Shown here: piece after piece, positions 13,266-44,210 of the stretch
How positions within the stretch are numbered: the first letter of the stretch is position 1
Layout: the number at the start of each line of letters is the position of its first letter
IMG/VR virus record: IMGVR_UViG_3300019888_000008
Location: 1-44,210 of that record
Length of the DNA stretch: 44,210 nt
Strand: one strand, 5' to 3'
From: a virus
Notes under the pieces: generated by a model
What the model saw: only the letters and a program-made list of their open reading frames with translations
The model's database searches: none
Told to the model about the DNA's origin: nothing
Program-made: the position numbers and the translations under genes

Positions 13266-14735
13266 GTGACGGTTGCGCAGAACCTTTGCCCTAACCCGGC
13301 ATTGGCCAATAATGACACCGGATGGGTGCCCACTCCGGCGGGTAGCTATGCCCGTGCGACAGCCGTCGATGCGTCGCTTCCGCGCACCACCGGGTACGCC
13401 GGAAGCGCGATTGCAGATATCAATAGTCCGAGATATCAGACCACGCCCGGTCAGCAGTACGTCATCTCCGTCAGTATGCACGCTATCGCCGCACAGAGTT
13501 TCGGACTGCTGAGCAACTGGTATAACGCGTCAAGCGGCGGGTCGTTTGTCAGCGCCACGGGCAATGTTTCCGTCAGTCTCGCGGCGGGGGCTACCACGCG
13601 AGTTGTGCTGGGCCCCTACACGGCGCCCGCAGGGTCGGTGTCGGGGCACCTGAAGTTTAACGACATCGACGCTGGCGGCATCGAGATAACGGCATTTCGG
13701 TGTGCCCCGTACACGGGCGACCTCACCGCCGATGGGGCGTATCTGGACGGCAACTCACCAGGAGCCCAGTGGGATGGCACCGCCGGTAGTTCCACATCCG
13801 CAATTCGTAGCTTTACTGACACCGCTACCTTCGCCAGTACCTGGGGTAACGTGTCGACCGTCGTGGCCGGATACACACCGGTCACGGATAGCGTGGCAGC
13901 CGGTGACTCGTTTGCGGCCGTGGCAACCGGCCCGATTACGGACGGTCTCTACTTTGTTGACGGCTTCCTGGTCGCCTCGCTCAGTTTCGATGCAAAGCGT
14001 GGTCGAGTCAGGATCGATGCGTTCACGTTCGCGCCCGGGGTGACCCATGCGGTCGTGTCCCGACGGGACGCCAGCGGCAAATACCAGTTGATCCGGGGTG
14101 GCAACGTGCCCACCATCGCCGGACGATTCTCCCGTACCGTGGACGATTACGAGTACGCGGCCGGCGAGGACGCTGAGTACCTCATCGAGGGGCGGACCGA
14201 TACCGAGTTGACAGTGCAGCGGGCAACGCTGAAGCGACTCGGCGCCGGCGATAAGACGTGGCTCAAGTTCGTCGCGGCCCCGCGCTACAACCGGCGGATC
14301 AACCTGGTCGGGTGGAGCAAGATCAGGCGCCGCGCGCGTGCGGGGCATTTTGACGTCAAAGGCCGTTCCGCCCCGGTTGTCACCTCTGATGTGCATGCCT
14401 CCCGCTTGGTTACGGTGCAATTCATCACGCGGGACCAGGGCGACACCGACGCATTAGATCTCGCGCTGGGCAGTGGTATCCCGATCTACCTTCAGGTACC
14501 TAAAGGTGTCCAGCTCCCCACGCTGTACGCATCCGTGGGGGACTATGAATTCGGCGAGCCGAGCAAGCTGGATTCCGGCCACGCACTGTTTTCGGTGCCA
14601 CTCACTGAGATCTCGGCCCCGTCCGCCGCAGTACTGGGCAGCCTTAACAGCTACCTGTCGGTTGCCACTGACAATCGCACCTATGACGAGCTACTGAGCA
14701 CTTACGATACGTATGAGCGATTGGCGGCCAGCTGA
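13266..14735 (+). CDS. Minor tail protein with carbohydrate-binding-like N-terminus
   Basis: A 489-residue protein. It opens with AQNLCPNPALANNDTGWVP, the usual start of carbohydrate-binding-module-like jelly rolls in phage tail proteins, covering about residues 1-170. The middle (about 180-330) is beta-rich. The C-terminal part (GSGIPIYLQVPKGVQLPTLY and TYDELLSTYDTYERL) resembles distal-tail-associated proteins. GAGGAGG stands 9 bases before GTG 13266. It probably belongs to the tail tip, touching host surface glycans. Its stop overlaps the next gene's ATG. Confidence 0.75.
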   Translation: MTVAQNLCPNPALANNDTGWVPTPAGSYARATAVDASLPRTTGYAGSAIADINSPRYQTTPGQQYVISVSMHAIAAQSFGLLSNWYNASSGGSFVSATGNVSVSLAAGATTRVVLGPYTAPAGSVSGHLKFNDIDAGGIEITAFRCAPYTGDLTADGAYLDGNSPGAQWDGTAGSSTSAIRSFTDTATFASTWGNVSTVVAGYTPVTDSVAAGDSFAAVATGPITDGLYFVDGFLVASLSFDAKRGRVRIDAFTFAPGVTHAVVSRRDASGKYQLIRGGNVPTIAGRFSRTVDDYEYAAGEDAEYLIEGRTDTELTVQRATLKRLGAGDKTWLKFVAAPRYNRRINLVGWSKIRRRARAGHFDVKGRSAPVVTSDVHASRLVTVQFITRDQGDTDALDLALGSGIPIYLQVPKGVQLPTLYASVGDYEFGEPSKLDSGHALFSVPLTEISAPSAAVLGSLNSYLSVATDNRTYDELLSTYDTYERLAAS

Positions 14736-17700
14736 TGTACACCATGTCCGCGCGGTGGCAAGAGGTGATTCTGGACAGCCATTCACCGATTGCGCGCGTG
14801 AGGGCGATGCCGTCCATTCAGTTCGGCCCCGCGCCAGACGGCGGACTAGAGTTAGAGATCGTCGCCGGTAACGTCCGGCTCAGCTCCACCGCCGATATCC
14901 GGGGCACGCTTGACCTCACGGTGCCGGGACATTTCTGGGACAGTCTCGAACCACGTGGTGTGGAGCTTTTCGTAGAGCGCGGTATCGACTACGGCGACGG
15001 CACGCAGGAATACTGTCCGTGTGGTTACTACCGAGTGCAGCGCATTAAGCAGGAGGACGCGCCGGATGGTCCGATTAAGGTTTCGGCCAGCGACCGTGGC
15101 GTACGGCTCCGCGAGCATCGCGTTGTGTTCCCGTTCAGCTACCCGGTGGGGACCACCCACACGGAGTTATTTGAGAAGCTGATTAACGGGCATACCCTGG
15201 GGCCGGGCCCACTCGATCGCGTCACCTACCCGCTGTACAACGGGAAAACGGTGCCGATTACGTTCCTCGGTTACGATGGGGATAACGCACTATTGCCAGC
15301 CGGGGTAGTCGAGGACTTTGTTTACGACCATCTCAGTAAGATCGTGGATTCACGCAACTGCGCTATCCAGTTCGATCGTACCGGCGGGTGCGTCGTCACC
15401 TTGCGCGACCGGCCACCATCGGACCCCAGTGTTTACACCATAGCCCCGGGCGGGCACGGCAACCTGATTAAGGTCGGCCGTGAGCTGACCCGCGAGGCCA
15501 CATACAACATCGTGGTTGCGCGGGGCTCCGATCCGGCATATCCAACCGGTTTCGGTGAGACGTACATCGACGATCCGAATTCACCACTGACGTATCAGGG
15601 ACCTTTCGAGGCCGTGATACGAAAATATGCCTCACCGTTCATTCACACGCTCGACCAGGCCGCCGGCGCCTCGATCCGTCTGGTCAACCGGTACAAGGGC
15701 CTCCCGTCCGGGCTGTCGGTGATCACCCTGCCGGACCCATCCATCGACCCCCTGGACCCCATCACCCTGGCCCCGGCAGGCATCCCCACCACCGACGCAC
15801 TGTCCGACGAGGTGTTGATCCCCCTCGACGTCGAGACGGCGGTCACGGTGACCACCAGGGCCCGCAATGAGGTCACCGACGAGCCCGACTACGTCTCGGG
15901 CGACGGCGGCGCCGGCTCCCCAGGCGGCCCCCCGGTGTTCCCCGCCGCGTTCCGCGACTCGCGCGCGTACCCGGCCATCACAGGTGACGGCGCGGCCACC
16001 GTGGTCAACGTCAGCACTTCCGCGCAGCTGACGGCCGCGCTGGCGGCGGCTGTCGCCGGCCAGGTCATCAGGTTGGCCAACGGCACCTATTCGGGCGTGT
16101 TCACAGTCAACGCCAAGGGCACGCAATCCAAGCCGATTGTGATCAGAGCGGCCATACAGTCGGGCCCGGTGTTCGCCACCGGTAGCAAGTTCATTGCGGA
16201 CAGCGCCGAGTGGGTACTGATTAAGGGCCTGGCATTTCCGTACGATCAGGAGGGCGACACCCTTACCGTTAAGGGTGCGTCAAGGTTTGTGCGGGTTACG
16301 CGATGCCTGATCGGCCCTGTCACGCCGAATGCGGAGGTCACTACCGCGTCGGTCCCCCAGGGTCATTACATTCACGTCACCGGTCAAGCTCAGGATTGCG
16401 TCGTCGACTATAACGAGCTGCGCAATAAGGCGCGCCCTGGTAACGGTATCGTGGTCGACGGCGATACGTCGGTATCCACTTACACCGGTGGCTGTAAGCA
16501 CATCCTGGTCGCCCACAACGATATCCATGATTTCGGCACCGAAGTCGCCAATGGTTTCGAGGCTATCCGGTGTGGCGCTAGCACGGTGTCCCGCACTGAG
16601 TCGTGTTCGGCGATCATCCGTAACGTGCTGCTCAACATCAGGTGCGAGCCTGAGGTTATCTCCGTCAAGATGGCGAAGGTTGACGTATGGGGCAACGCAC
16701 TAAAACTGTGCGTAGGCAGTATCTGCTATCGGCATGGCACGGACGGCTATGTAGGGCACAATTACATTCGCGGAGCACTACCCGCAAACACGCCTATCGT
16801 CGGAAGCGCAGGCACAAAAACGGGCGGTATTCGTGGGTATGACACCGGCCATGACTGGTCGGAAAACTACCTAGACGATATCAACGGCGACAGTTACGAG
16901 GCCGCGCTGGTTATCGATGGTGGCGAGACGGCTCCGGCGATCAACGGTCACTGGCCGCTCAAGAACATCAAGGTTCGCAAGAACCTTCTGGTCGGTTGTC
17001 AGACCGGTATTTTAATGGCGCCGCACTACACGGTTCCACCGGATAGCGTCATCGTGACCGATAACGTCGTGGTCGCGCCTAAAGGTCAGACCACCGCGAT
17101 TAAGACCACGAAAGCGCCGACCGGCACCAACGTGCTGGCCCCGAACACGTATTTTGCGGATATCGCGTCGGCCGGTCTCACCATCGATGTCGACGACGTC
17201 TACCGTAAAGACGGGGTAGGCCCCCGGCTGACCTACCTGCACCGCTCCGATGTCGGTATTACGGGCGATCTGGCGGAGACAGACGGTACCGGCCGGTCAA
17301 TCGGCGGGGCGAGTGGTGGCACGCCCACGGGCGGTGGCACGCCCGGAGGCGGTGGCACACCCCCCGGCACTCCGGCCAGCTCGATCGCCGATCTGCTGAA
17401 ACTCGGTAAAGCCGACGGGTATTCGAAGTGCAATATCGGTATCGGTTACACGTCAGGGCACAAGGATCACACTCTGGCGGAACTCGAGAATGGATTCTCC
17501 GAGCCCGGGTATTTCGAGCTCACCTCGGACAAGCTGCGTGCGAAACTGTCTGTCCCACTCAACGGCGGAACGACGAGTAGTAACACGAAATATCCGCGTG
17601 TGGAGTTCCGCCAACTGAACTCGGATGGCACCACCAAGACGTCGTTCAACCCGAACGAGAATAAGACGCGGGTCGTGGGCGCACTGTCGCGCGTCACCAG

Positions 17701-18118
17701 GATGCCTCCGAGTAAGCCGCAGTTGTGCCTATTGCAGTCGCATGATGCCAGCGATGACACCGCGATGATTTACATGAACAGCAAGACGGTGGTTCAGGCC
17801 AAGCTGGGCGACACCGTCATGGGTACGCTGACGAGCAGTTTCGTGTTCGGCACCGATTATTACATGAAGATCACCATCGTGGGCGATGGCAGCAAGTCGG
17901 TGGTCAAGTGGTATTGGGGTACAACTCCCGCTGACATGACCACACCGAAGTTCACGTCTAGTTCCGCCACACGCAGCACCACCTGGTATCTGAAGGGTGG
18001 GAACTACGCCCAGTCGAACACGACGTATGACTCCCTCTCGGATGGGCCATTCATCGTCGAGATGACGAAGTTTGTACTCTGGGAGACCGGCATGCCCTTG
18101 CCGGTTGGGTGGATCTGA
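14735..18118 (+). CDS. Tail protein with two polysaccharide-lyase folds
   Basis: A 1127-residue composite. Residues 1 to about 390 are a virion-attachment part like DUF5047 minor tail proteins (TADIRGTLDLTVPGHFW, YYRVQRIKQEDAPDGPIKVS). From about 400, GQVIRLANGTYSGVF, GTQSKPIVIRAA and EWVLIKGLAF mark a chondroitinase B/PL6-type beta-helix running to about 800. A Gly/Thr/Pro linker (859-880) leads to a C-terminal alginate-lyase-2/PL7-like jelly roll with YPRVEFRQL (about 952), QSH (about 1001) and YLKGGNYAQS (about 1084), matching that family's three active-site motifs. It probably degrades host or biofilm polyuronate during adsorption. Substrate is unknown. Confidence 0.85.
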   Translation: MYTMSARWQEVILDSHSPIARVRAMPSIQFGPAPDGGLELEIVAGNVRLSSTADIRGTLDLTVPGHFWDSLEPRGVELFVERGIDYGDGTQEYCPCGYYRVQRIKQEDAPDGPIKVSASDRGVRLREHRVVFPFSYPVGTTHTELFEKLINGHTLGPGPLDRVTYPLYNGKTVPITFLGYDGDNALLPAGVVEDFVYDHLSKIVDSRNCAIQFDRTGGCVVTLRDRPPSDPSVYTIAPGGHGNLIKVGRELTREATYNIVVARGSDPAYPTGFGETYIDDPNSPLTYQGPFEAVIRKYASPFIHTLDQAAGASIRLVNRYKGLPSGLSVITLPDPSIDPLDPITLAPAGIPTTDALSDEVLIPLDVETAVTVTTRARNEVTDEPDYVSGDGGAGSPGGPPVFPAAFRDSRAYPAITGDGAATVVNVSTSAQLTAALAAAVAGQVIRLANGTYSGVFTVNAKGTQSKPIVIRAAIQSGPVFATGSKFIADSAEWVLIKGLAFPYDQEGDTLTVKGASRFVRVTRCLIGPVTPNAEVTTASVPQGHYIHVTGQAQDCVVDYNELRNKARPGNGIVVDGDTSVSTYTGGCKHILVAHNDIHDFGTEVANGFEAIRCGASTVSRTESCSAIIRNVLLNIRCEPEVISVKMAKVDVWGNALKLCVGSICYRHGTDGYVGHNYIRGALPANTPIVGSAGTKTGGIRGYDTGHDWSENYLDDINGDSYEAALVIDGGETAPAINGHWPLKNIKVRKNLLVGCQTGILMAPHYTVPPDSVIVTDNVVVAPKGQTTAIKTTKAPTGTNVLAPNTYFADIASAGLTIDVDDVYRKDGVGPRLTYLHRSDVGITGDLAETDGTGRSIGGASGGTPTGGGTPGGGGTPPGTPASSIADLLKLGKADGYSKCNIGIGYTSGHKDHTLAELENGFSEPGYFELTSDKLRAKLSVPLNGGTTSSNTKYPRVEFRQLNSDGTTKTSFNPNENKTRVVGALSRVTRMPPSKPQLCLLQSHDASDDTAMIYMNSKTVVQAKLGDTVMGTLTSSFVFGTDYYMKITIVGDGSKSVVKWYWGTTPADMTTPKFTSSSATRSTTWYLKGGNYAQSNTTYDSLSDGPFIVEMTKFVLWETGMPLPVGWI

Positions 18119-22554: not shown

Positions 22555-22580
22555 TACCGAGATCCTTCCGAGGTCGGATA
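22555..22580 (-). repeat. Dispersed GACCTCGGA repeat, copy a
   Basis: This 26-base element is identical to the reverse complement of 37466-37491. Read on the minus strand it follows CGACCTCGGA-N5-CTCGGTA. It lies in the convergent gap between the late operon and the leftward operon, just past the terminator hairpins. Confidence 0.8.
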
Positions 22581-24241: not shown

Positions 24242-24511
24242 TCATCTCAGGGCCGCACCTGTGCCGTTGCAGTCAGCGCACTCTTCATAGCTGCACTCGA
24301 CACCGTAACCATTACATACGCGGCAGTCGTCATTTTCAGTGCCTCCGTCTCCGGTGTATCCGCTGCCGTCGCAGGCCACGCAATAGGTTTCGATCTCAAT
24401 CTCACGCTCCCCATCGCACGACTTGCATCTTCCGTGCCTCTCGATCAGGGCGATGCGGGCAGCCTCACGCTCGGCCAGCTTGGCCAGGATCTCTACCCTG
24501 GTCAGGGTCAT
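24242..24511 (-). CDS. DnaJ-type zinc-finger protein, copy 1
   Basis: An 89-residue protein. A helical N-terminus (LAKLAEREAARIALIERHG) leads to CKSCDGERE, CVACDGSGYTGDGG, CRVCNGYGVEC and CADCNGTG, which are CxxCxGxG knuckles like those of the DnaJ central domain, without any J domain. ATG 24511 follows GGAGGAACCGAAA. It is a tandem paralogue of the next gene (24574-24846). Likely zinc-binding; partner unknown. Confidence 0.75.
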   Translation of the reverse strand: MTLTRVEILAKLAEREAARIALIERHGRCKSCDGEREIEIETYCVACDGSGYTGDGGTENDDCRVCNGYGVECSYEECADCNGTGAALR

Positions 24512-24573
24512 TTTCGGTTCCTCCGGTTTCAGTGACGGATTCAGTAGCAGTGCGGTGGCCGTACCGATGAGGC

Positions 24574-24846
24574 TTATGACTTCACGCCCTGCCCGGCCGC
24601 GCCGGTACCGTCACATTCGTCGCATTCCACGAAACTGACCTGAACGCCCGCGCCGTCACACTCGTCGCAGTCGCCATCAGCATTTTCATGAGATCCATAG
24701 CCGTGGCACTCGTCGCACCGGGCCTCAACCTCAAGCTCGCGGGCACCATCGCACGACATGCATCTTCCGTACTGCTCGATCAGGGCGATGCGGGCGACTT
24801 CGCGGGCGGCCAACGCGGCCACAATTTCACGGTTAGTCATGGTCAT
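24574..24846 (-). CDS. DnaJ-type zinc-finger protein, copy 2
   Basis: A 90-residue paralogue of the previous entry: AALAAREVARIALIEQYG, then CMSCDGAREL, CDECHGYG, CDECDGAGVQV and CDECDGTG. ATG 24846 is the first of two close ATGs and has GGAGGA 7 bases upstream, identical to the leader of copy 1. The longer open frame upstream is rejected because it is antisense to the preceding gene's reading. Cysteine spacing is DnaJ-like. Confidence 0.75.
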   Translation of the reverse strand: MTMTNREIVAALAAREVARIALIEQYGRCMSCDGARELEVEARCDECHGYGSHENADGDCDECDGAGVQVSFVECDECDGTGAAGQGVKS

Positions 24847-24863
24847 TTTCGGTTCCTCCGGTT

Positions 24864-25322
24864 TCAGTGACGGACTTGTGACGGACTCGGAGAGATCACC
24901 TGCGCGCGGCGAAACCGCTCGTAGAGGGACCCCTTGCAGCCGTACTGCGGCAGGGTGCGCTCCGACTGGTGCGGCCTGATCGTCTCGCAGCGGTCGCACT
25001 GCATTACGTGCTCGCCCCGGTGCCAGCGATCGATCCAGCAGTGCCGCGTGTCGGTGTTTGTCATGCTGCGTTCCGCGCGGTAAACCGCGTCCACGTCCCA
25101 CTCGGCGCGCAGGGTGTCATACCGGCTGGACGATGATTGCAGCGCACTGATGGCGGACGTGAGCGCCCAGTGTGCAGCGTCCCGCGCAGTGCTGTCGGTA
25201 TATGCGCGCGGGAACGTGTAGGTAAGTGTGCGACCACCGGCGGAGATCGTGACACCGAAGCCCCCTGCGGGCTGTTCGACGGCCGTCACAGTGATGTCTT
25301 CGTGTTTGTGGGTGTAGGTCAT
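24864..25322 (-). CDS. First gene of leftward operon, Cys/His-containing
   Basis: A 152-residue protein. The N-terminal 65 residues form strands (ITVTAVEQPAGGFGVTISAG, RTLTYTFPRAYTD), followed by a helix and a C-terminal part with HCWIDRWHRGEHVMQCDRCE and YGCKGSLYERF, a likely zinc site. The ATG is at 25322, exactly where transcription from the promoter at 25329-25358 should begin, suggesting a leaderless mRNA. Not recognised. Confidence 0.7.
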   Translation of the reverse strand: MTYTHKHEDITVTAVEQPAGGFGVTISAGGRTLTYTFPRAYTDSTARDAAHWALTSAISALQSSSSRYDTLRAEWDVDAVYRAERSMTNTDTRHCWIDRWHRGEHVMQCDRCETIRPHQSERTLPQYGCKGSLYERFRRAQVISPSPSQVRH

Positions 25323-25393: not shown

Positions 25394-25549
25394 GTGGTCA
25401 GCGTGGAGGTCCGGCTGTTACGCTGGTCGCTTACCTCGCCCGCTACGCTGCCGGGCGTGCCGTCACATGATCAGTGGAAGCCGCTAGTAGCTAGTTGCAC
25501 AATGGCCGAACGTCAGCCATCCTTGCGGGTGCGACCGGTGACGACATGA
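25394..25549 (+). CDS. Possible small gene before the transfer module
   Basis: GTG 25394 opens 51 codons ending in TGA that overlaps the next ATG (ATGA), the coupling style of this genome. A TGACAG-N17-TAGTGT pair at about 25366-25394 could be its promoter, making it near-leaderless. The peptide (VEVRLLRWSLTSPATLPGV at its start) is not recognised, so the gene may be only a leader. The rest of 25323-25545 is promoter space. Confidence 0.3.
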   Translation: MVSVEVRLLRWSLTSPATLPGVPSHDQWKPLVASCTMAERQPSLRVRPVTT

Positions 25550-25791
25550 CAGAGCTGTGGTCCGTGCGCGACGTGGCCGACTGGGCGGACATCTCATACA
25601 ACGCCGCCTACAAAGCGTTGACGCGTTTGCGCGGAAGCCACGGGCTCACCCACGCCGAATACGGTCGGGCTGGCGCGCTGCTATATGACCCTGACGTGGT
25701 GCGCGCCGCATGGCCGCTGCTACCTGGGCGCGGAGCATGGAAACAGCGCCCGGGCGAACAGGAATCCAGTAGTGGAGACAAAACGACGTGA
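25546..25791 (+). CDS. Winged helix-turn-helix DNA-binding protein
   Basis: An 81-residue protein. WSVRDVADWADISYNAAYKAL is a typical helix-turn-helix, followed by a wing-like HAEYGRAGALLYDPDVVRAAW. The ATG at 25546 was preferred to the upstream in-frame start because homologous HTH proteins begin just before this helix. It leads the operon of transfer-like genes and may regulate it or act at a transfer locus. The C-terminal tail is polar. Confidence 0.65.
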   Translation: MTELWSVRDVADWADISYNAAYKALTRLRGSHGLTHAEYGRAGALLYDPDVVRAAWPLLPGRGAWKQRPGEQESSSGDKTT

Positions 25792-26410
25792 CGTCATCAC
25801 CTGGTGCGGGCTGGCCGTTGTAGGCGCGGCCGCCGCCGCGCTCAGCTTCACCGCGCTCGACGAGCTCGCACAACTGTGCGGCATCCGACTGCACTACCTC
25901 CTACCGGTCACCGTGGATGTTTTCGCGGCCACCGCCACCCGGATTTGGCTGCGCGCCCGCGCACACCCAGACGCCGTCGCCTACGCGCGCTCAGCGGCAT
26001 GGTGCGCCATCGTGGCCACCATCGCCGGTAACGCGCTGCACGGCCAGCTCACCAGTGCCCACCGGTTGCCGTCGTGGTGGCTGGTGGTCGCCGTCGCCGC
26101 GCTACCGGCCGTCGCGCTGGGTGCGCTCGTGCACCTGGCGGTGCTCGTCGGGCGGCCCGTGGCGGACGCCGGTCAGGCGGAGCTCCCACCGGTAGACCAC
26201 GAGCCGCCGCCGTTTATCCGCCGCCCGTTGGTGCTACCCGCCAGCGACGAGGTTCTCATCGCTGACCTGCGAGTGTGGGCGGTCGACCACGGTGGGATAC
26301 CGCCCGTTGATGCGATCAGATTGGGCTACGGAGTGGGCACCACACGGGCGTCGCGGCTGCGCGACATCGTCACCGCAACCCCTGTCAACGGAACGGTGGT
26401 GAACCGGTGA
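25772..26410 (+). CDS. DUF2637 membrane protein
   Basis: A 212-residue protein with four hydrophobic segments at about residues 12-30, 40-58, 70-85 and 100-125. The pattern AALSFTALDELAQLCGI and then LLPVTVDVFAATATRIWL is that of DUF2637, a family common beside FtsK-like genes on actinobacterial plasmids and AICEs. The cytoplasmic C-terminus has SDEVLIADLRVWAVDHGGIP and GVGTTRASRLRDIV, a likely HTH. The GTG at 25772 has AGGA upstream and overlaps the previous gene by 20 bases. Its stop overlaps the next gene (GTGA). Confidence 0.75.
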   Translation: METKRRDVITWCGLAVVGAAAAALSFTALDELAQLCGIRLHYLLPVTVDVFAATATRIWLRARAHPDAVAYARSAAWCAIVATIAGNALHGQLTSAHRLPSWWLVVAVAALPAVALGALVHLAVLVGRPVADAGQAELPPVDHEPPPFIRRPLVLPASDEVLIADLRVWAVDHGGIPPVDAIRLGYGVGTTRASRLRDIVTATPVNGTVVNR

Positions 26411-26577
26411 GCGACTGGTTGGAGTGGCTGATAGCGCTGGGCATCACGCTGGCCGTGGGTGCCCTGATCTGTGGTGGCGCACTGGTGTGGATGGAGGTGA
26501 CGCTGCGGTGGGGCCGTAGCCGTCCACTACCGCCGATGATCAACACTCTCGAGCGCGAGAGGGGTGGCGCACGATGA
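26407..26577 (+). CDS. Small single-pass membrane protein, 56 aa
   Basis: GTG 26407 overlaps the DUF2637 stop (GTGA) and the end overlaps the FtsK start (ATGA), so the 56-codon frame fits the operon. SDWLEWLIALGITLAVGALI followed by CGGALVWMEV forms one membrane segment; the tail is basic with PPMINTLERER. Small membrane proteins in this position are typical of actinobacterial transfer operons. Confidence 0.65.
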   Translation: MSDWLEWLIALGITLAVGALICGGALVWMEVTLRWGRSRPLPPMINTLERERGGAR

Positions 26578-28643
26578 CCATCGCACTGCCCGACGAGGGC
26601 GACGACGAGGTTTACGACGCCGAGATCGTGGAGCTGCCCGACCGGCCGCCACTCCCGATCGCCACCGGCACCGAGCTGTCGGTGCTGCCCTGGCAGGCCG
26701 ACCTGCCGCAGCGTCGGCCCGTGGTGGCCCCGTGGCTGCGGCAGAGCGATCAGCGGGTGGCCGCTGTCCGCCACGTCGTCGGCCACGGCATCCACGTGGC
26801 GAAATACCACGTGGTCCGTGCCCCGCTGTACACCGCGCGCACCGCCGCCATGGCACCGCGCGGCCTACTGCGGGTGGTCGTGACCGCCGGCCGCTGGGCC
26901 TGGGATGTGGAGCAGGCCCCGTTGCGGGCGCAGGCCGGTCAGCGCGGCGACGTGACCGCGTACCGGGCGCTACGCAAAGACCGAGTGAACCGGGCCCGCA
27001 CAGCGGCCATCCTCGCCGCTGGCGGCCTGCTGCTGGCGGCCTGCGTCGTGCTGCTCGCCCCGCCCTGGCTGCGGTGGGCGCTGCTGGCGGTGCTGCTCGG
27101 CGTGCTGGGCAAGCTCGGCGCCCGACCCGACCGACCACTGATCACACCCGCCGTGGTGCCCAACGGCAAACGCAAACTCAGCTATGGGATCGTCACCGAC
27201 GCGTTTTTGGACGCCAAACTGTGCACAACAGATCGGCCGATCACCTTCGCCACACCCATTCACCGCGACTCCAACGGATACACGGTCATCATCGATCTGC
27301 CGGGAGGTCGCACCGCCGACAAAGCGATCAGCATGCGCGACGAGATCGCCTCCGGACTCGACGTGGACGAACGGCAGGTGTTCCTCTCCCGCGTGCGGGG
27401 CGCGTCCGGTTCCGCCCGTCGAGTGGACTTGTGGGTGTGCGATGTCGACCCGCTGACCATCCCCGCCGGACACACCGCACTGTTGGACATGGAGCGGGTG
27501 AATTTCTGGCAGCCGTGGCCTTTCGGTAAGAACGAGCGGGGCGCTGATGTCGAACTGTGCATTCTGTGGGCCGCAATGCTGATCGGCGCGATCCCGCGCC
27601 GTGGCAAGACGTTCGTGGCACGGCTGGTCGCCCTCGCAGCCAGCTTGGATCCCCACGTTGACCTCTACATATTCGACTTCAAGGGCTCCCCGGACTGGGT
27701 GCCTTTCCGTCAGGTCGCACACCGGATCTTCCACGGTGACCGGCCCGATCCGGACACCGGAATACACCCGGTGGGCGCGCTGTTGGACACGGTCAATGAG
27801 TTGTTGGAGGAGGTTGACCGGCGCAACCGGCTCATGCGCACGCTGCCCGCTGACATCTGCCCCGAGGGAAAGCTGACCGAGGAATTGTCGCGCGCGAAAG
27901 GCTATGACCTACACCTGAAAGTGCTGGTGATAGACGAGGTTCAGCGCGGTTTCACCAACCGCGACTACGGCGACGAACTAGAGATCGCCCTGACCGATCT
28001 GGTCAAAGCCGGTCCGAGTGCGGGAATCATCACGGTGGCCGCCACCCAGAAACCGGACGCGAAGTCGACACCTACAGGTTTCAGGGACCAATTCGGGGTG
28101 CGGTTCGCGCTCTACGTCACCACGCGGGACGCCAGCGAGGCCGTGCTCGGCGCCGGCGCGGGCGGTGAAGGTCTGCACGCGCACCGACTGCCACCCAACG
28201 CCCCAGGTGCCGGACTGCTGCGCGGAACCGGTGACGCGGCCATCGCGGGCGGCATCGTGCGCACCGGGCTGGCCAACCAAATCCACGCCGAACAGATCTG
28301 CGCGCGGGCGCGGGTGCTGCGCGAAGGCGCCGGGACGCTGGCCGAGATGGCACTCGGCGTGCAGGTGTCCGCCACACCGGCCACCTACAGCGTCGGCGCC
28401 GACCTGCTCATGGTGCTGGCCGAAGACAAGGCACACAGCGACGTGCTGTGCTCGCGGCTGGCGGAACGTTGGCCGGACCGATACGCCGGTTGGCAAATCT
28501 CGCAACTACACGCGGCACTGAAACCGTTCGGTCTGCGTCCGCGCCAGGTTTGGGCGGACTCCATTGATGGCGGCCAGAAAAATCGCATGGGCATTTTGAG
28601 AAGTGAACTAGTCGAGAGGTTGGACGCTCCACATGGACCGTGA
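26574..28643 (+). CDS. FtsK/SpoIIIE (TraB/TraSA-like) DNA translocase
   Basis: A 689-residue translocase. Residues 143-181 hold two hydrophobic stretches (membrane anchor). The motor spans about 205-590: Walker A GAIPRRGKTF (338-347), YIFDFKG (365-371), Walker B VLVIDEV (450-456), and TVAATQKPDA, typical of FtsK/TraSA. Residues 608-685 form a winged helix like FtsK gamma. In Streptomyces plasmids and AICEs such proteins move double-stranded DNA between mycelial cells after binding short repeats. Its company (HTH, DUF2637, small membrane protein) is that of a conjugative element, not of a phage. A partition or packaging role is the alternative. Confidence 0.9.
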   Translation: MTIALPDEGDDEVYDAEIVELPDRPPLPIATGTELSVLPWQADLPQRRPVVAPWLRQSDQRVAAVRHVVGHGIHVAKYHVVRAPLYTARTAAMAPRGLLRVVVTAGRWAWDVEQAPLRAQAGQRGDVTAYRALRKDRVNRARTAAILAAGGLLLAACVVLLAPPWLRWALLAVLLGVLGKLGARPDRPLITPAVVPNGKRKLSYGIVTDAFLDAKLCTTDRPITFATPIHRDSNGYTVIIDLPGGRTADKAISMRDEIASGLDVDERQVFLSRVRGASGSARRVDLWVCDVDPLTIPAGHTALLDMERVNFWQPWPFGKNERGADVELCILWAAMLIGAIPRRGKTFVARLVALAASLDPHVDLYIFDFKGSPDWVPFRQVAHRIFHGDRPDPDTGIHPVGALLDTVNELLEEVDRRNRLMRTLPADICPEGKLTEELSRAKGYDLHLKVLVIDEVQRGFTNRDYGDELEIALTDLVKAGPSAGIITVAATQKPDAKSTPTGFRDQFGVRFALYVTTRDASEAVLGAGAGGEGLHAHRLPPNAPGAGLLRGTGDAAIAGGIVRTGLANQIHAEQICARARVLREGAGTLAEMALGVQVSATPATYSVGADLLMVLAEDKAHSDVLCSRLAERWPDRYAGWQISQLHAALKPFGLRPRQVWADSIDGGQKNRMGILRSELVERLDAPHGP

Positions 28644-28995
28644 AGTTTTTATCTACATTAAAATTCGAGACGTTAACAGCGAACCGGAAACCACGACGCC
28701 CGCACGCGATCTGATTGCAGACACGCTTGCCGCAATGGGAAGCGATCAGCAATGTCACTCCGACGCGCTCTGCGCACGGTTGAGCATGATCTCGCCGCAA
28801 TACGCAGGCTGGTATCCGCGTTCGTTCGCTGGCGCGCTCGCAGCGCACGGCGTGGTGACGCGCCAGATTTGGGGACCGTGCATCGAGAGCGGAACCATGA
28901 AAAATCGGTACGGAGTGACCCGTCAATCCCTAGAGGCGGCGCTGCGTGAGCGACCACGCGCCTCTAATCTTAGAGATCACTCTAGAGCGGGCTGA
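28633..28995 (+). CDS. Stand-alone winged-helix copy of the translocase C-terminus
   Basis: A 120-residue protein whose residues 25-105 align with residues 608-685 of the translocase: HSDALCARL against HSDVLCSRL, YAGW in both, RQIWG against RQVWA, and KNRYGVTRQSL against KNRMGILRSEL. It therefore looks like a duplicated, separate DNA-binding domain. ATG 28633 lies 11 bases inside the end of the translocase gene. It may compete for, or extend, the recognition of the same DNA repeats. Confidence 0.75.
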   Translation: MDREVFIYIKIRDVNSEPETTTPARDLIADTLAAMGSDQQCHSDALCARLSMISPQYAGWYPRSFAGALAAHGVVTRQIWGPCIESGTMKNRYGVTRQSLEAALRERPRASNLRDHSRAG

Positions 28996-28998
28996 ACC

Positions 28999-29073
28999 AT
29001 GGATGACCTGCGCAAACGTGTTGCCATAGAGCTTAGGGCGACGAGCACTCAGCAGGCCCGGGGACGCCCGTGA
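28999..29073 (+). CDS. Possible 24-aa minigene
   Basis: ATG 28999 follows the previous stop by 3 bases and opens 24 codons, MDDLRKRVAIELRATSTQQA and a short end, ending in a GTGA overlap with the next gene. Spacing suggests translation as a coupling leader. No family. Confidence 0.3.
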   Translation: MDDLRKRVAIELRATSTQQARGRP

Positions 29074-29330
29074 CCACGTTAATGCCGTTCCTGGCCGTAC
29101 TAGCGTCCCCAGACGGTTCTGGCCAGCAGGTCGAAACCGACGCCACGAGCGGTCTGACGACGCTGGCGCTGATCGCGCTGGCACTAGTCGCCTGGTGGGT
29201 CGTCAAGCGTGTGCTCTGGCCGGAGCGGCCGTGCCGGAGCCCGAAATGCAAGGGTGGGAGGATCTACGCACCCGACGGAAAGTCGTGGAGACGGCACGGT
29301 AAGTGCAACGGAAAGGGCTACATCGACTGA
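29070..29330 (+). CDS. Membrane-anchored zinc-knuckle protein
   Basis: An 86-residue protein. The N-terminal segment (TTLMPFLAVLAS) may be a weak signal or second helix, and residues about 28-48 (LTTLALIALALVAWWVVKRV) form a membrane anchor. The cytoplasmic end has CRSPKCKGGRIY and RRHGKCNGKGYID, a degenerate DnaJ-type zinc knuckle common in small proteins of actinobacterial mobile elements. It closes the transfer-like operon. Confidence 0.65.
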   Translation: MTTLMPFLAVLASPDGSGQQVETDATSGLTTLALIALALVAWWVVKRVLWPERPCRSPKCKGGRIYAPDGKSWRRHGKCNGKGYID

Positions 29331-29820: not shown

Positions 29821-30240
29821 CTAACCTGCGTCACCCTTGGTATCACGTAGTGCCACCCGCTGCGCTAACCACGCTAAAATCTGGACCTGCTCGGACTCGT
29901 CGCGGTTGCCGAGATACTCATACAGATCCGCCATGTCGTCACCGGTACCGGCCAGCATCACGCCGTTATCCCGCATGGCCGCGATACCTAACGCTCGCCG
30001 GTCCACCCCTAAACCGTGCGCTACCCGGTCCAGTGTCCACGGGTCGTAACGGCGCCCCTGTGGCCCCACTGGTTTGAGGTACATGCTCAGCGTCTGGCGC
30101 GACACGCCCGTCTTACGTTCCGCGTCCCTAATCCCCACGGTGTCAACGTCGGACCGACGCGAACCTGGCTGTAGGCCCGCCGCACGCAGTAGAGCTCCGA
30201 CCGCTGACGGGCGCGTGGTCCGACCTGGCGGTTCAGTCAT
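29821..30240 (-). CDS. Repressor-like helix-turn-helix protein
   Basis: A 139-residue protein. IRDAERKTGVSRQTLSMYLK is a clear helix-turn-helix, followed by WTLDRVAHGLGVDRRALGIA, and an acidic C-terminal part (DDMADLYEYLGNRDESEQVQ) that could dimerise. It is divergent from the excisionase-like gene, the classic place of a phage or plasmid repressor. The ATG at 30240 was chosen over the earlier in-frame start because it begins nearer the conserved part and has GGGAG upstream. The operator-like repeats lie between the two genes. Confidence 0.72.
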   Translation of the reverse strand: MTEPPGRTTRPSAVGALLRAAGLQPGSRRSDVDTVGIRDAERKTGVSRQTLSMYLKPVGPQGRRYDPWTLDRVAHGLGVDRRALGIAAMRDNGVMLAGTGDDMADLYEYLGNRDESEQVQILAWLAQRVALRDTKGDAG

Positions 30241-30290
30241 GGTGTGGCTCCCGGTTCGAGGAGTCGAGGCATGCCGGTCAGGTCGCATCA

Positions 30291-30352
30291 TTGTCGCAGG
30301 ACGTCAATTTGTCACTCAAACCTTGACTTTTTGTCGCAGGATGGTGCAGTGT
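30291..30352. promoter_or_regulatory. Divergent promoters with paired operators
   Basis: TTGTCGCAGGA occurs at 30291-30301 and 30331-30341, 40 bases apart (about four turns). A rightward promoter TTGACT (30323-30328), N18, CAGTGT (30347-30352) holds copy 2 in its spacer. A leftward TTGAGT-N18-GACAAT candidate has its -10 overlapping copy 1. Each copy would block one promoter, consistent with control by the adjacent repressor-like protein. Confidence 0.6.
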
Positions 30353-30409: not shown

Positions 30410-30616
30410 GTGACCGAAATGTCAGTGGATCACGAGCCACTGCTGCATCCTGACGATGTGGCGGTGATGCTCAGCGTCAACCGCGCCACCCTGTATCGGT
30501 GGTGGAGACAGGGGACTGGTCCTCCGTACGTCCAGCTCCCCGGAAAGGTGCGTCGATGCAGACTGACCGACGTGCGGCAGTACATCGAAAATCAAACCGA
30601 GAGGTCTCCCTCATGA
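30410..30616 (+). CDS. Excisionase / AlpA-like HTH protein
   Basis: A 68-residue protein of the HTH_17/excisionase type: LLHPDDVAVMLSVNRATLYR, then WWRQGTGPPYVQLPGKVRRC and RLTDVRQYIE. Such proteins act as excisionases or as regulators in actinobacterial mobile elements. The GTG at 30410 has GCGAGG 9 bases upstream. With the integrase reduced to a remnant, the gene may now act only as a regulator or replication accessory. It starts the rightward early operon. Confidence 0.75.
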   Translation: MTEMSVDHEPLLHPDDVAVMLSVNRATLYRWWRQGTGPPYVQLPGKVRRCRLTDVRQYIENQTERSPS

Positions 30617-37809: not shown

Positions 37810-38480
37810 TGAGTCGGCCGAGGTTACTGGATTGCTACTCGGGCGCAGGTGGTGCCGCGATGGGCTACCACCGTGCGGGATTCGACGTGTACGGGGTCGA
37901 CATCGCACCACAGCCCAATTACCCGTTCCCGTTCCGCCAGGGCGACGCGATAGAGACATTACGCGACCACTGGCACGAATTCGATGCATACCATTTCAGT
38001 CCACCCTGCCAATCTCATAGCTCCCTTACGAGCGGTACGAATCGGTATCTCAATAATGAGTACCCGGACCTGATCGCATTGACACGGCTCGCGGCGAGGA
38101 TCACCCGAGGTCGCCCCTGGGTGATCGAGAACGTGCAAGGTGCGCCGATACGCAGCGACATAACGCTGTGCGGTGAGATGTTCGGGTTAGAGGTGATCCG
38201 TCACCGACTGTTCGAGTGCCATGGCTTCACCCCGATACGGCCGGTACATAAACCGCATCGTGGTCGCGTTGCCGGTATGCGCCACGGGGAGTGGTTCACC
38301 GGACCGTACTTTCAGGTTTACGGCGACGGCGGCGGTAAGGGCAGCGTCGCCGAATGGCAGCGGGCCATGGGGATCACCTGGACCGGTGTACGTAAAGAGA
38401 TAGCCGAGGCGATACCGCCCGCGTACACCGAATACATCGGTGGCCTGGTCATGACGGCGATCATGGAGCGTGCGGCATGA
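37809..38480 (+). CDS. DNA cytosine-5 methyltransferase
   Basis: A 223-residue C5-type methyltransferase. Motif I is LLDCYSGAGGAAMGYHRAGF (SAM binding), motif II GVDI, motif IV SPPCQSHSS with the catalytic cysteine at 67, motif VI IENVQGAP (107-109 ENV), and motif VIII RHRLFE (131-136). It is shorter than full restriction methylases, as usual for phage orphan enzymes, so it has a small target-recognition part. The likely role is to shield phage DNA from host restriction. ATG 37809 or the GTG just before it are both possible starts. No restriction enzyme is adjacent. Confidence 0.88.
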   Translation: MSRPRLLDCYSGAGGAAMGYHRAGFDVYGVDIAPQPNYPFPFRQGDAIETLRDHWHEFDAYHFSPPCQSHSSLTSGTNRYLNNEYPDLIALTRLAARITRGRPWVIENVQGAPIRSDITLCGEMFGLEVIRHRLFECHGFTPIRPVHKPHRGRVAGMRHGEWFTGPYFQVYGDGGGKGSVAEWQRAMGITWTGVRKEIAEAIPPAYTEYIGGLVMTAIMERAA

Positions 38481-40729
38481 GCGACCAACCCTACGGGGAT
38501 AGTGCCGCGCTCTACTGGGCACACGGGTGGCGGGGAATACTGCCCATCCCGCCGAAATCGAAAAAGCTGACGCTACCGGGATGGACCGGTCACCAGGGCG
38601 CCGTACCGAGTTACGCGGACATTCAAGCATGGATCGACGGCCCTGAAGGTCGGGGGAATGTGGCGATCCGCCTGCCCGACAACGTCATCGGTGTCGACGT
38701 GGACGCGTACAACGGCAAAACGGGCGCCGAAACACTGGCCGGTTGCGAGGCGCGGTGGGGGCCCCTGCCGGCGACCTGGCGGAGTTCCGCGCGCGACTGG
38801 CCGTCCGGGATCCGCTTCTACCGGATACCGCCTGGCCTCAACTGGCCAGGCGAGCTCGGGCCGAACGTGGAAATCGTGCAGTGGGCTCACCGGTACGCCG
38901 TGGTGTGGCCGTCACTGCATCCCGACACCGGGACCCGATACCAGTGGTTCGCACCGGACGGGCAGCCCATGCCGTACGTGGTGCCGTCACCGGAGGATCT
39001 CGCCGAGCTCCCGGTGCGCTGGGTGGAAGGGCTGTCCCGGGGGCAGTACGCGCCGGAGTTGAAGGCCGCCGTGCCGTGGGGAGCAGTCGCCGAGTGGATT
39101 CAAGCGCATGACCATGTTGGTAGTTGTTGCATCGTTCAACATGCGATAACGGATATTTCAACACGCTTCCAACATGGTGCGCGGCATGAGGTTTTGACCG
39201 GTCCACTACTGAATTTGATCAGACTCGGTGAGCTGGGCCACAGAGGACTAGGGGAAGGGCTCGTCGATGTTCGGCGTGAGTTCGAACAGGTGGCCAGTGA
39301 TCCAACACGGGGGGCACAACGATCCGCCGTGGGGTTGGGCCGGGAGTGGGATCGGGCCATCGGGGGAGCAGTGGGAATGGTGATCGCGCAACCCACCAGG
39401 GGCCCGGATTCACTACCCGCCACGCCGTGCGCATGTGATTTCGACCTGAGCTCGATCCTGCCACCTGACGATGACGGTCGACCCCGGCCCGCTCCGGCGG
39501 CGACTGAGAGGCCCGCTCCGGCGTTCGACTGGCTGGCCAGCGCGCCCACCTCCCCGGTGGACGATGAGCCCGTGGCGGCCCGCGTGGCGCCGGAGCCGCT
39601 GGACCTCGGGCCGGACACACCGGAGACGCCGCTCGTATCGCTGCTGGACATCGAGGTCCGCAAGCTTGAGCTCCGCCGTGCCGCACTGCGGATAGTCGAG
39701 CAGCGCGAGCAGGAGGCAGCGTTCGTCTGGCCGGAGGGCGGGTGGTCGGCCCGGGACGAGCTCGCCCTGCCCGACGAGCCAGTGACCTACACGGTGGCGC
39801 ACGTAATGCCAACCGGCACTAACGTACTGTTAACCGCTGGGTACAAATCCGGTAAAACTACGATGGTCAACAATCTGGCACGCTCCCTAGTGGACGGTAC
39901 CCGCTTCCTCGGTCGGTTCGATATCGCCGCGATGCCTGGCAACGTGGCGATCTGGAATTACGAAGTGGACGGCCCGATGTACCGCAGGTGGCTGCGCAGC
40001 ATGAAAATACAGGAGCTCGATAAGCTCTATCCATTCAATTTACGCGGTTACCGGATGCCACTACTCGTCAAACACGTTGAGGATCGTGTGGTGGCGTGGC
40101 TAGCGGAACGCGACATTAAGTTCTGGGTAGTGGACCCGTTCGCTCGCGCGTTCGTCGGTTCCGGTGAGGAAAACAGTAACGATCAGGTCGGTAAGTTCCT
40201 CGACACCCTTGACGTAATCAAGCGCCGGGCTGGCGTGCGAGACCTAGTGCTACCCACACACACTGGCCGTGCTGAAATGTCCGCCGGACAGGAACATGCG
40301 CGGGGAGCGACCCGCCTTGACGACTGGGCTGACGTCCGCTGGATCCTCACACGCGAAAATTCAGACAGTCCGGCGTACTTTCGAGCGAGCGGACGCGACG
40401 TTACGTGGTCGGAATCTCAGCTGAGCTATGACGAGGAAACCAGGACGCTGACCATGGGAGCAAAGGGAAACAGGTCTCGCGCTGAAAACAAGAGAGACCT
40501 AATCATGACCGCGATATTACAGGCGGTGCGTGAGAGTCCTGGTATTAATACGAGCGATCTGCGCAATATCGTGAAGGAAAATCTAGGCACCATGGACGTG
40601 AAGCTGTACGGCGAGGCTATCGGTATTCTCAAACGTTCGTACCGAATCCGTACCGAAAAGGAGGGTGTAACCACGCGTCACTACAACGATCAGCCTGGCG
40701 AGCTGCTGCTCCCTCAAGATCCATCGTAG
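38477..40729 (+). CDS. Primase-polymerase / RepA-like helicase
   Basis: A 750-residue two-part replication protein. Residues 1-190 form a prim-pol domain (archaeo-eukaryotic primase type) with VIGVDVDAY (Asp74, Asp76) and EIVQW (Glu131) as likely metal ligands, and GIRFYRIP between. A Pro/Ala-rich linker (about 300-390) leads to a RecA-fold helicase of the RepA type: Walker A GYKSGKTT (454-461), WVVDPFARAF (Walker B, 549-558) and LVLPTHTGR. The end (about 660-740) looks like a winged helix. Such proteins replicate AICEs, plasmids and some phages with host polymerase. No phage DNA polymerase is seen. Confidence 0.88.
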   Translation: MSDQPYGDSAALYWAHGWRGILPIPPKSKKLTLPGWTGHQGAVPSYADIQAWIDGPEGRGNVAIRLPDNVIGVDVDAYNGKTGAETLAGCEARWGPLPATWRSSARDWPSGIRFYRIPPGLNWPGELGPNVEIVQWAHRYAVVWPSLHPDTGTRYQWFAPDGQPMPYVVPSPEDLAELPVRWVEGLSRGQYAPELKAAVPWGAVAEWIQAHDHVGSCCIVQHAITDISTRFQHGARHEVLTGPLLNLIRLGELGHRGLGEGLVDVRREFEQVASDPTRGAQRSAVGLGREWDRAIGGAVGMVIAQPTRGPDSLPATPCACDFDLSSILPPDDDGRPRPAPAATERPAPAFDWLASAPTSPVDDEPVAARVAPEPLDLGPDTPETPLVSLLDIEVRKLELRRAALRIVEQREQEAAFVWPEGGWSARDELALPDEPVTYTVAHVMPTGTNVLLTAGYKSGKTTMVNNLARSLVDGTRFLGRFDIAAMPGNVAIWNYEVDGPMYRRWLRSMKIQELDKLYPFNLRGYRMPLLVKHVEDRVVAWLAERDIKFWVVDPFARAFVGSGEENSNDQVGKFLDTLDVIKRRAGVRDLVLPTHTGRAEMSAGQEHARGATRLDDWADVRWILTRENSDSPAYFRASGRDVTWSESQLSYDEETRTLTMGAKGNRSRAENKRDLIMTAILQAVRESPGINTSDLRNIVKENLGTMDVKLYGEAIGILKRSYRIRTEKEGVTTRHYNDQPGELLLPQDPS
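39111..39178. repeat. Inverted CAACATG repeats inside the primase gene
   Basis: ACCATGTTGG (39111-39120) and CCAACATGGT (39169-39178) are perfect inverted arms. A further CAACATG lies at 39138-39144. The stretch between (GCGATAACGGATATTTCAAC) is A/T-rich for this genome. The segment codes for about residues 212-234, between the primase and the linker. A replication origin within the initiator gene is a possible reading. Confidence 0.5.
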
Positions 40730-41290: not shown

Positions 41291-42088
41291 ATGAAAATCT
41301 ATGGTATCGACCAGTCCTATCAGCGTACCGGAATCTCCCGTATCGCATTCGGTATTGACGGCGATGTCAACGCGGTATCTCGCTCAGTATCGCCGTGGAA
41401 AGCGATAGATAATCCATACAGTGCGCGTCATGTTGCGATGCACGACCATGCCTATAACATCACCAATATGGTGGGTGACGACGCGGTATTGGCCGTCATG
41501 GAGGGGCCATCGTATGGTTCGAAAGGTAAAGCAGTGTGGCAGCTGTCTGTGTTACTGGACACCGTATTCGGCTACCTGGTGGAGCGCGGCATTCCCGTCG
41601 CGGTATGTCCTCCAACTACGCGCGCTAAGTGGGCTACCGGTAAGGGGAATGCCGCTAAGGATCTGGTCTGTATCCACGTTGATAGACTGTGGCCGAATGT
41701 GGGTAAAAACAACGATGAATTGGACTCGTTGGCGTTCGCTACAATGGGTGCGCAGTGGATGCGATGGAATGTGCCGTCGCTGGCCCGACACCGCGCCGCG
41801 CTGGCTGGTGTCGAGTGGCCGGACATGAAGACGCTGAGAGGTTCTGTGCGGCCGTCAGGGGCCGTCCCCGGTGTCATTACCCTCGGAGCCGGTGACAATC
41901 GGCTGGCGACCCCAATGAGCCCGTGCGGCACAGTCCCGGCGGGCAGGCTTCCCAGCACGGAAGTAAGTGACCTCGGAGCTTCCTCGGTAAGCGACCTCGG
42001 AGCTTCCTCGGTAAGCGACCTCGGAGCTTCCTCGGTAAGCGAGCTCCGGAGTCTCCGCTACGAGATGCGGGCCGAGCCAGTCAATTGA
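41291..42088 (+). CDS. RuvC-like Holliday junction resolvase
   Basis: A 265-residue protein. MKIYGIDQSYQRTGIS (Asp7), VLAVMEGPSYG (Glu71), CPPTTRAKWATGKGNAAKDL and NNDELDSLAFA (Asp142, Asp145) give the four acidic residues of the RuvC/RNase H fold. It resolves recombination junctions before packaging. Residues beyond 165 are variable, and the end holds three VSDLGASS repeats encoded by tandem DNA repeats of the GACCTCGGA family. ATG 41291 follows AAGGACCACG. Confidence 0.82.
   Translation: MKIYGIDQSYQRTGISRIAFGIDGDVNAVSRSVSPWKAIDNPYSARHVAMHDHAYNITNMVGDDAVLAVMEGPSYGSKGKAVWQLSVLLDTVFGYLVERGIPVAVCPPTTRAKWATGKGNAAKDLVCIHVDRLWPNVGKNNDELDSLAFATMGAQWMRWNVPSLARHRAALAGVEWPDMKTLRGSVRPSGAVPGVITLGAGDNRLATPMSPCGTVPAGRLPSTEVSDLGASSVSDLGASSVSDLGASSVSELRSLRYEMRAEPVN
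41963..42034 (+). repeat. Tandem GACCTCGGA repeats, three 24-bp copies (e)
   Basis: The unit GTAAGCGACCTCGGAGCTTC plus CTCG occurs at 41963-41986 (one change), 41987-42010 and 42011-42034, followed by a degenerate fourth (GTAAGCGAGCTCCGGAG). It is in frame with the resolvase gene, 8 codons per unit. Confidence 0.88.
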
Positions 42089-43888: not shown

Positions 43889-44108
43889 TTATGCAGTGTA
43901 TATACAGCATGGTTATACAGTGCGATGCATAGCGGCCTGCATGATCATGTTGAGCATGATCATGATGTACGTATATGCAGGTCAAACCTATCAGACAGTG
44001 ACATCGATCATGAGCATAAGCGCAGGTCAAAGGCTTGTGATCACAGACAGTGAGTTTTTCGGGGATTACAGGATATCCACAGGCCCGAGCCCCTGTCTTG
44101 GTTTCTAG
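43881..44108 (+). CDS. Met-rich membrane protein at the junction
   Basis: A 75-residue protein. GTG 43881 overlaps the previous gene by 8 bases. It has one membrane segment (CIAACMIMLSMIMMYVYAG, about 16-34) with an unusual run of methionines, partly because the DNA carries two CATGATCATG palindromes. The stop (44106-44108) lies inside the terminal repeat. Base composition is A/T-richer than its neighbours. Function unknown. Confidence 0.5.
   Translation: MNNYAVYIQHGYTVRCIAACMIMLSMIMMYVYAGQTYQTVTSIMSISAGQRLVITDSEFFGDYRISTGPSPCLGF
43940..43964. repeat. Two CATGATCATG palindromes
   Basis: The 10-bp perfect palindrome CATGATCATG occurs at 43940-43949 and 43955-43964, 15 bases apart, near the genome junction. 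It may be a protein-binding site for packaging or regulation, though it also encodes part of a membrane segment. Confidence 0.5.
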
Positions 44109-44210
44109 CCGAAATATTCCCGTGATCTGGGATTAGTTTCGGTATAACTATTCACGGACTATTCATCGCGCTATTCAGGACTATTCATCGCATGAATACA
44201 GTGAATAGTT
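44085..44210. repeat. Right copy of 126-bp terminal direct repeat
   Basis: Identical to 14-139, including the CTATTCA array and the first part of the holin leader. On a circle the membrane-protein gene would end here and the holin operon would follow. Confidence 0.9.

Follow-up and report, generated by a model that had tools for sequence, protein, structure and literature searches.

TraB of the Streptomyces venezuelae plasmid pSVH1 has an established transfer function. According to PMC3583192 and PMC3218068, its winged helix recognises 8-bp repeats, and hexameric rings and membrane pores have been reported. The kind of module that such proteins form is already known from AICEs and from plasmids of mycelial bacteria, where it serves to move dsDNA between cells. 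An earlier conjugating plasmid-phage is pZL12 (NC_013420) of Streptomyces, for which PMC3583192 gives conjugation as shown, a precedent for the case described here. FtsK-like translocases also occur in cultured actinophages, namely gp203 of the cluster J mycobacteriophage Omega and ORF63 of the Thermobifida phage P1312, the latter by description only. The Omega-type FtsK has no membrane domain and resembles mycobacterial FtsK (PMC3706429). In extrachromosomal mycobacteriophages, parABS replaces the integrase at the genome centre (PMC7157519).

We analysed the whole of IMG/VR record IMGVR_UViG_3300019888_000008 (44,210 bp; hereafter the window). On balance, we favour the reading that an operon in this record is a TraB-type dsDNA-transfer module, of the AICE and Streptomyces-plasmid kind, belonging to temperate actinobacterial siphophages that would spread by virions and by a conjugation-like route.

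The record is that of a tailed phage, as TerL, an HK97-type portal and capsid, and minor tail proteins were found; an earlier note on this DNA was right to call it a siphophage genome. TerL has its best match, at 37% identity, in Arthrobacter phages and is also related to terminases of Curtobacterium and mycobacterial phages. An exonuclease gene is present as well. The tail protein encoded at 14735-18118 combines a DUF5047 tail domain with two polysaccharide-lyase domains, a chondroitinase B domain (6e-22) and an alginate lyase domain (3e-12), and is likely a virion depolymerase. An endolysin-like amidase with a peptidoglycan-binding domain (4271-5050) is encoded between the genes for the portal and the next structural protein, not in a lysis cassette. 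Two CxxC-rich zinc-finger proteins, tandem paralogues (182-nt repeat, 76%) with weak similarity to Q-like antiterminators, are encoded on the minus strand at 24242-25101. Scans of the window for tRNA, tmRNA and Rfam families gave no match. The nearest relatives suggest a host in the Pseudonocardiaceae; the GC content of the window, 61%, is well below that of the Pseudonocardia plasmids pPoc2 and pPaSha2 (71-73%).

The operon consists of six genes, all on the plus strand between 25.5 and 29.3 kb, encoding an HTH protein, a DUF2637 protein, a 56-aa transmembrane protein, an FtsK-type translocase, a winged-helix protein and a zinc-knuckle protein. All of the genes that the earlier note had described as joined by start/stop overlaps were found, with a 24-codon ORF bridging the only gap. 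The HTH gene (ORF 25495-25791, probable start ATG at 25546, 81 aa) has a product with nothing above cut-off in Pfam and 50% identity over 60 aa to a counterpart encoded upstream of DUF2637-FtsK in a Pseudonocardiaceae prophage, G243. By 20 nt it overlaps the gene for the DUF2637 membrane protein (25772-26410, 212 aa, probable start GTG at 25772, longest ORF from 25685), which matches PF10935 at 3.3e-9 (37 bits vs a cut-off of 22.8), is 49% identical to its pPoc2 counterpart and has two hydrophobic segments over the hydropathy threshold. The gene for the 56-aa single-span membrane protein (26407-26577; hydrophobic segment at residues 9-27; no family match) is linked to its neighbours by a GTGA overlap at 26407 on the upstream side and an ATGA overlap at 26574 on the downstream side. 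The translocase gene (26574-28643, 689 aa) then overlaps the free-standing winged-helix gene (28633-28995) by 11 nt, at 28633-28643. Next, after a gap of 74 nt, comes the gene for the zinc-knuckle-like single-span membrane protein (29070-29330, 86 aa); the gap is occupied by the 24-codon ORF (28999-29073, plus strand, read from the sequence), which ends with GTGA on the zinc-knuckle start and which we infer keeps the operon translationally coupled.

Minus-strand genes flank the operon on both sides, making it a transcription unit of its own. Downstream is a repressor-like HTH gene in the lysogeny region (29821-30291, minus strand; HTH_31 at 0.001, below cut-off) and beyond it an excisionase-like HTH_17 gene (30410-30616, plus strand; PF12728 at 1.7e-10, phrog_66 at 1.4e-9), which is present without any integrase gene in the record. 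GC content is 0.70 in the DUF2637 gene and 0.67 in the translocase gene (GC3 0.81); most phage genes measured lie at 0.58-0.63, and the capsid gene is also at 0.67. Flanking the operon are the two arms of an inverted repeat of 25 bp (88%). One, at 25534-25558, is close to where the HTH gene starts and the other, at 29922-29946, to where the repressor-like gene ends, and both code similar peptides (LAGxTGDDM). About one inverted match of 15 bp is expected by chance; the placing of this 25-bp pair is striking.

The translocase matches the Pfam FtsK family (PF01580) weakly, at 17.5 bits and under the cut-off of 24, and phrog_1358 at 2.5e-20. Profile searching identified FtsK of P. aeruginosa (7e-13) and TcpA (2e-11), a conjugative coupling protein, and a high-confidence AlphaFold model (pLDDT 87) matched the folds of the FtsK motor (7e-14) and TcpA (4e-13). 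A Walker A motif, GAIPRRGKT, occupies residues 338-346, and residues G338, G344-K345 and E455 are invariant across 39 homologues. Hydrophobic segments within residues 144-176 mark an N-terminal membrane anchor, which the model renders as helices 127-161 and 164-182, and a C-terminal winged helix spans approximately residues 606-684 (model elements 607-684). As modelled, the protein thus has the TraB architecture, with two TM helices, an FtsK motor and a winged helix at the C-terminus. Its identity to pSVH1 TraB is 34% over 363 aa, and its best named matches are on plasmids, in 44 records that are nearly all actinobacterial, 35 of them from Streptomyces. On the NCBIfam model NF041214 (plasmid_TraB), it scores 17.6 bits, far below the cut-off of 800, and the plasmid_TraB equivalog name is therefore not applied.

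A quick maximum-likelihood tree of 82 rows with SH-aLRT supports placed the translocase as sister of the pPoc2 protein (support 100). The sequences with which it grouped were pSVH1 TraB, proteins of Streptomyces plasmids, AICE-like and genome-encoded proteins and phage-borne proteins, the rows for pSVH1, pIJ101 and pZL12 being long-branched and unsure in their exact places. Pseudonocardia chromosomal FtsK and EccC stood apart from this group with support 100, which rules out an origin from chromosomal FtsK. Sequence comparison thereby demonstrates membership of the TraB-like group. The assignment of the module to the kind found on actinobacterial plasmids and AICEs, as first made on gene content, is borne out by tree, architecture and plasmid matches alike, and the tree proposed as a check sets the protein outside the chromosomal FtsK/EccC group. 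Changes between phage and plasmid state were also counted on the tree, but with only four plasmid rows the count was not relied on.

A relationship absent from the earlier note concerns the winged-helix gene. Its product is 41% identical over 73 aa to the C-terminus of the translocase (E 3e-15), and by this similarity the gene is a copy of the DNA-binding domain that the translocase itself carries. The model of the free protein (pLDDT 83) has the order of elements of a winged helix, and a structure search with it returned generic, weak winged-helix matches in the PDB only. No second free winged-helix gene was seen in the loci examined, where the query met the translocase itself and two weak partial matches. 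The domain is also similar to the C-terminus of DUF3631, which 8 of 26 aligned domains match (best 1.9e-5); DUF3631 is the family of the RepAM replication initiators of AICEs (PMC3218068). Homologues of the zinc-knuckle protein (26-41%) are encoded approximately 70-120 bp 3' of the translocase ORF at six other loci, and judged by this recurrence the protein is a genuine member of the module. On pPaSha2 and on an 18-kb Streptomyces plasmid, too, DUF2637 is encoded next to FtsK. SpdB2 of pSVH1 and SpdB of pIJ101 gave no match to any Pfam family, so that a spread function for DUF2637 is by analogy only.

Single-protein scans of viral contigs with the FtsK or Prim-Pol protein returned nothing, and a profile scan was needed. 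This yielded 79 loci in viral contigs and 537 matches in genomes, of which the best 80 were kept. The translocase was accompanied by a terminase in at least 23 of 50 IMG/VR records, as counted with one TerL profile. In a set of 29 records, nearly all TerL-bearing, DUF2637 occurred in 16, a tyrosine recombinase in 18 and a serine recombinase in 10. Among the best 80 of the 537 genome loci, nine had phage structural genes within approximately 10 kb, given the probes used, and 46 had AICE-type replication genes. Recurrence of the translocase beside phage structural genes is demonstrated at the sequence level by these loci. None of four translocase queries found a full-length relative in 50,697 phage records. 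A temperate phage class bearing such translocases appears to occur widely but to be all but missing from records of cultured phages. A literature search, with most subscription journals outside its reach, found no paper on FtsK/TraB-bearing actinobacterial phage-plasmids as a class.

Related prophages show where the module sits. In G243, TerL, portal and capsid are 48-49% identical to those of the window, and HTH-DUF2637-FtsK follows the tail genes and lies against tRNA-Met, with an integrase gene approximately 40 kb off at the other end. DUF2637-FtsK is in the corresponding place in prophage G265, downstream of the capsid gene as in G243 (capsid genes 44-49% identical to that of the window), and FtsK is in a like place in G085; no module was seen in the other three relatives examined. 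The FtsK proteins of the capsid-related prophages are only 29-33% identical to that of the window. The phage genes of pPoc2, conversely, are 23-32% identical to those of the window, yet its FtsK reaches 62%. Module and virion genes have different nearest relatives, and by this comparison the module has therefore been exchanged between phages.

The two ends of the window carry exact copies of a 126-bp repeat (14-139 and 44085-44210), which, when joined, give a circle of 44,071 bp. De Bruijn assembly of a circle at k = 127 is expected to yield a lasso-shaped output, and the window has the shape that we would infer for a 44,071-bp circle with a stray tip of 13 nt. Neither PF00589 nor PF00239 matched anywhere in the record, and ParA had no match among the proteins searched, every likely-gene ORF of more than 200 aa being otherwise accounted for. 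Because integrase and ParA are absent and the repeat joins the ends, the prophage is likely circular and extrachromosomal. A candidate replicon is the Prim-Pol and AAA_25 replication protein encoded at 38477-40729 on the plus strand (PF09250, 6.7e-18; PF13481, 1.4e-22), whose N-terminal half resembles proteins of Gordonia and Rhodococcus phages. The earlier proposal that the phage is a phage-plasmid is favoured, short of proof, by the missing integrase, the end repeat and the two phage-plasmid relatives pPaSha2 and pPoc2, on both of which the module is present as sought in plasmid-prophage records.

Candidate recognition sites were considered throughout the window. Its strongest non-coding repeat cluster, distant from the operon, is a palindrome at 67-146, mostly within the first copy of the end repeat, with 15-bp arms (CGGTATAACTATTCA) and several CTATTCA iterons between them (DNA fold z -6.5). 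It could equally be an origin, an operator, a clt or a packaging site. Repeat scans of the window gave no convincing candidate for an overrepresented 8-bp recognition motif or clt as in pSVH1, and a TGTGGCC cluster at 29.3 kb is weak. Two CTCGG boxes 11 bp apart (CTCGG-N6-CTCGG) have 15 near-matches vs approximately 6 in shuffles, dispersed at 22557, 23816, 31072, 31096, 37474 and 41972-42035. This arrangement was not adopted as a recognition motif, being partly coding tandem repeats (SVSDLGAS).

In the mechanism that we propose for the transfer module, expression of the operon in the prophage, which here is probably a circle outside the chromosome, would be separate from that of the lytic genes. 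Translocase subunits would form a hexameric pump anchored in the membrane. Through its winged helix, this pump would bind repeats of clt type on the circular phage DNA and would drive the dsDNA into an adjacent cell or compartment of the mycelium. Accessory, spread-type functions may fall to DUF2637 and the two small membrane proteins, and the HTH gene may be the regulator of the operon. The free winged-helix copy might compete for the translocase's sites or help at them. Two routes would then be open to the phage, one by virions and the other by conjugation-like or intramycelial spread; conjugation-like transfer by the phage is what homology with TraB would imply.

Partition had been offered in the earlier note as the alternative. 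The translocase might clear or distribute an extrachromosomal prophage through septa in place of parABS, with no intercellular transfer. The window, having no integrase and no ORF remaining for ParA, agrees with such a role, as does the central position of the module beside a repressor-like gene, like that of parABS in extrachromosomal mycobacteriophages; the FtsK-like protein of the T. fusca phage P1312 was also read by its authors as a segregation factor (PMC4569894). Integrated prophages, however, need no plasmid partition and keep the module, as seen in G243 with its integrase and tRNA-Met flank and in the tyrosine-recombinase records (18 of 29); this tells against a role in partition alone. 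As the tree and gene set also match transfer elements, we regard this alternative, now weakened, as unlikely.

Somewhat less probable still is that the operon is a lysogeny moron of another kind, with a pump directed at host DNA (chromosome mobilisation) or at incoming phages (exclusion) and not serving phage spread. phrog_1358 is filed as a moron, the operon forms a transcription unit of its own between two minus-strand groups, pSVH1 TraB binds clt-like chromosomal sites (PMC3218068), and a free winged-helix copy could compete for binding sites. However, no exclusion, toxin or cargo genes were recognised in the operon, and the DUF2637 and zinc-knuckle partners recur with the translocases of plasmids, genomes and phages alike. 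That the operon is a decayed passenger, a captured AICE or plasmid module no longer working, would accord with the sparse phylogenetic distribution and high exchange of the module and with a clear clt not having been found. We consider this very improbable, as all ORFs are intact and coupled, the Walker motifs are intact, identity to the pPoc2 protein is 62% along the full length, and the module recurs in many phages. A virion DNA packaging protein or a chimeric-contig artefact, for which nothing speaks beyond the oddness of the gene combination, has a negligible probability, since the phage has its own TerL, the tree excludes chromosomal FtsK, and prophages with homologous capsid genes have the module in the matching place, so that it is not a chimera.

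If our preferred reading of a phage-borne transfer module is true, these phages are transmitted in two ways, and the border between actinobacterial phages, plasmids and AICEs is a matter of module exchange. Collections of cultured phages would miss the class, which has relatives in scores of metagenomic virus contigs and in genomes. A testable question is raised, that of whether prophages move between hyphae without virions. More tentatively, with odds that we would put a little short of even, a broad and overlooked class of temperate actinophages may use TraB-type pumps for dsDNA spread in lysogeny, by way of mycelial or cell contacts, beside virions, the present phage being an integrase-less plasmid prophage in which a free copy of the recognition domain regulates or broadens transfer.

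Compared with known systems, the window's translocase shares with pSVH1 TraB the membrane anchor, the FtsK motor and the C-terminal winged helix, whereas pSVH1 is a plasmid without phage genes and has SpdB-type partners, not DUF2637. With AICEs, the window shares an FtsK/SpoIIIE-type Tra protein, a Prim-Pol-type replication protein and an excisionase-like HTH; AICEs have an integrase, whereas the window has none and has a full set of virion genes. The window's Prim-Pol, while of the AICE replication type, is of a kind found also in Gordonia and Rhodococcus phages. Like the window, pZL12 is a phage genome with an FtsK-like gene, although it is twice the size and has parAB, and its FtsK-like gp071 has no detectable similarity to the window's translocase. 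The circular pPaSha2 of Pseudonocardia alni (41,938 bp) carries a small ORF-DUF2637-FtsK operon near an HTH regulator, with terminase, portal, protease and capsid genes on the same circle; it differs in a translocase of 35% identity and a short tyrosine recombinase gene. Closest is pPoc2 of Pseudonocardia oceani KRD185 (61,150 bp), with a translocase of 62% identity over 690 aa, a DUF2637 protein of 49% identity, and homologues of TerL, portal and tape-measure proteins; it is a plasmid by record label and, as read from its phage homologues, a phage-plasmid. It differs from the window in encoding a large serine integrase and in having an identical chromosomal copy, and the free winged-helix gene was not found in it. 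In KRD185, the element exists as a plasmid and also within the chromosome, and one of its junctions adjoins the serine integrase gene. P. oceani KRD185 with pPoc2 is a ready model of a phage-plasmid bearing this module.
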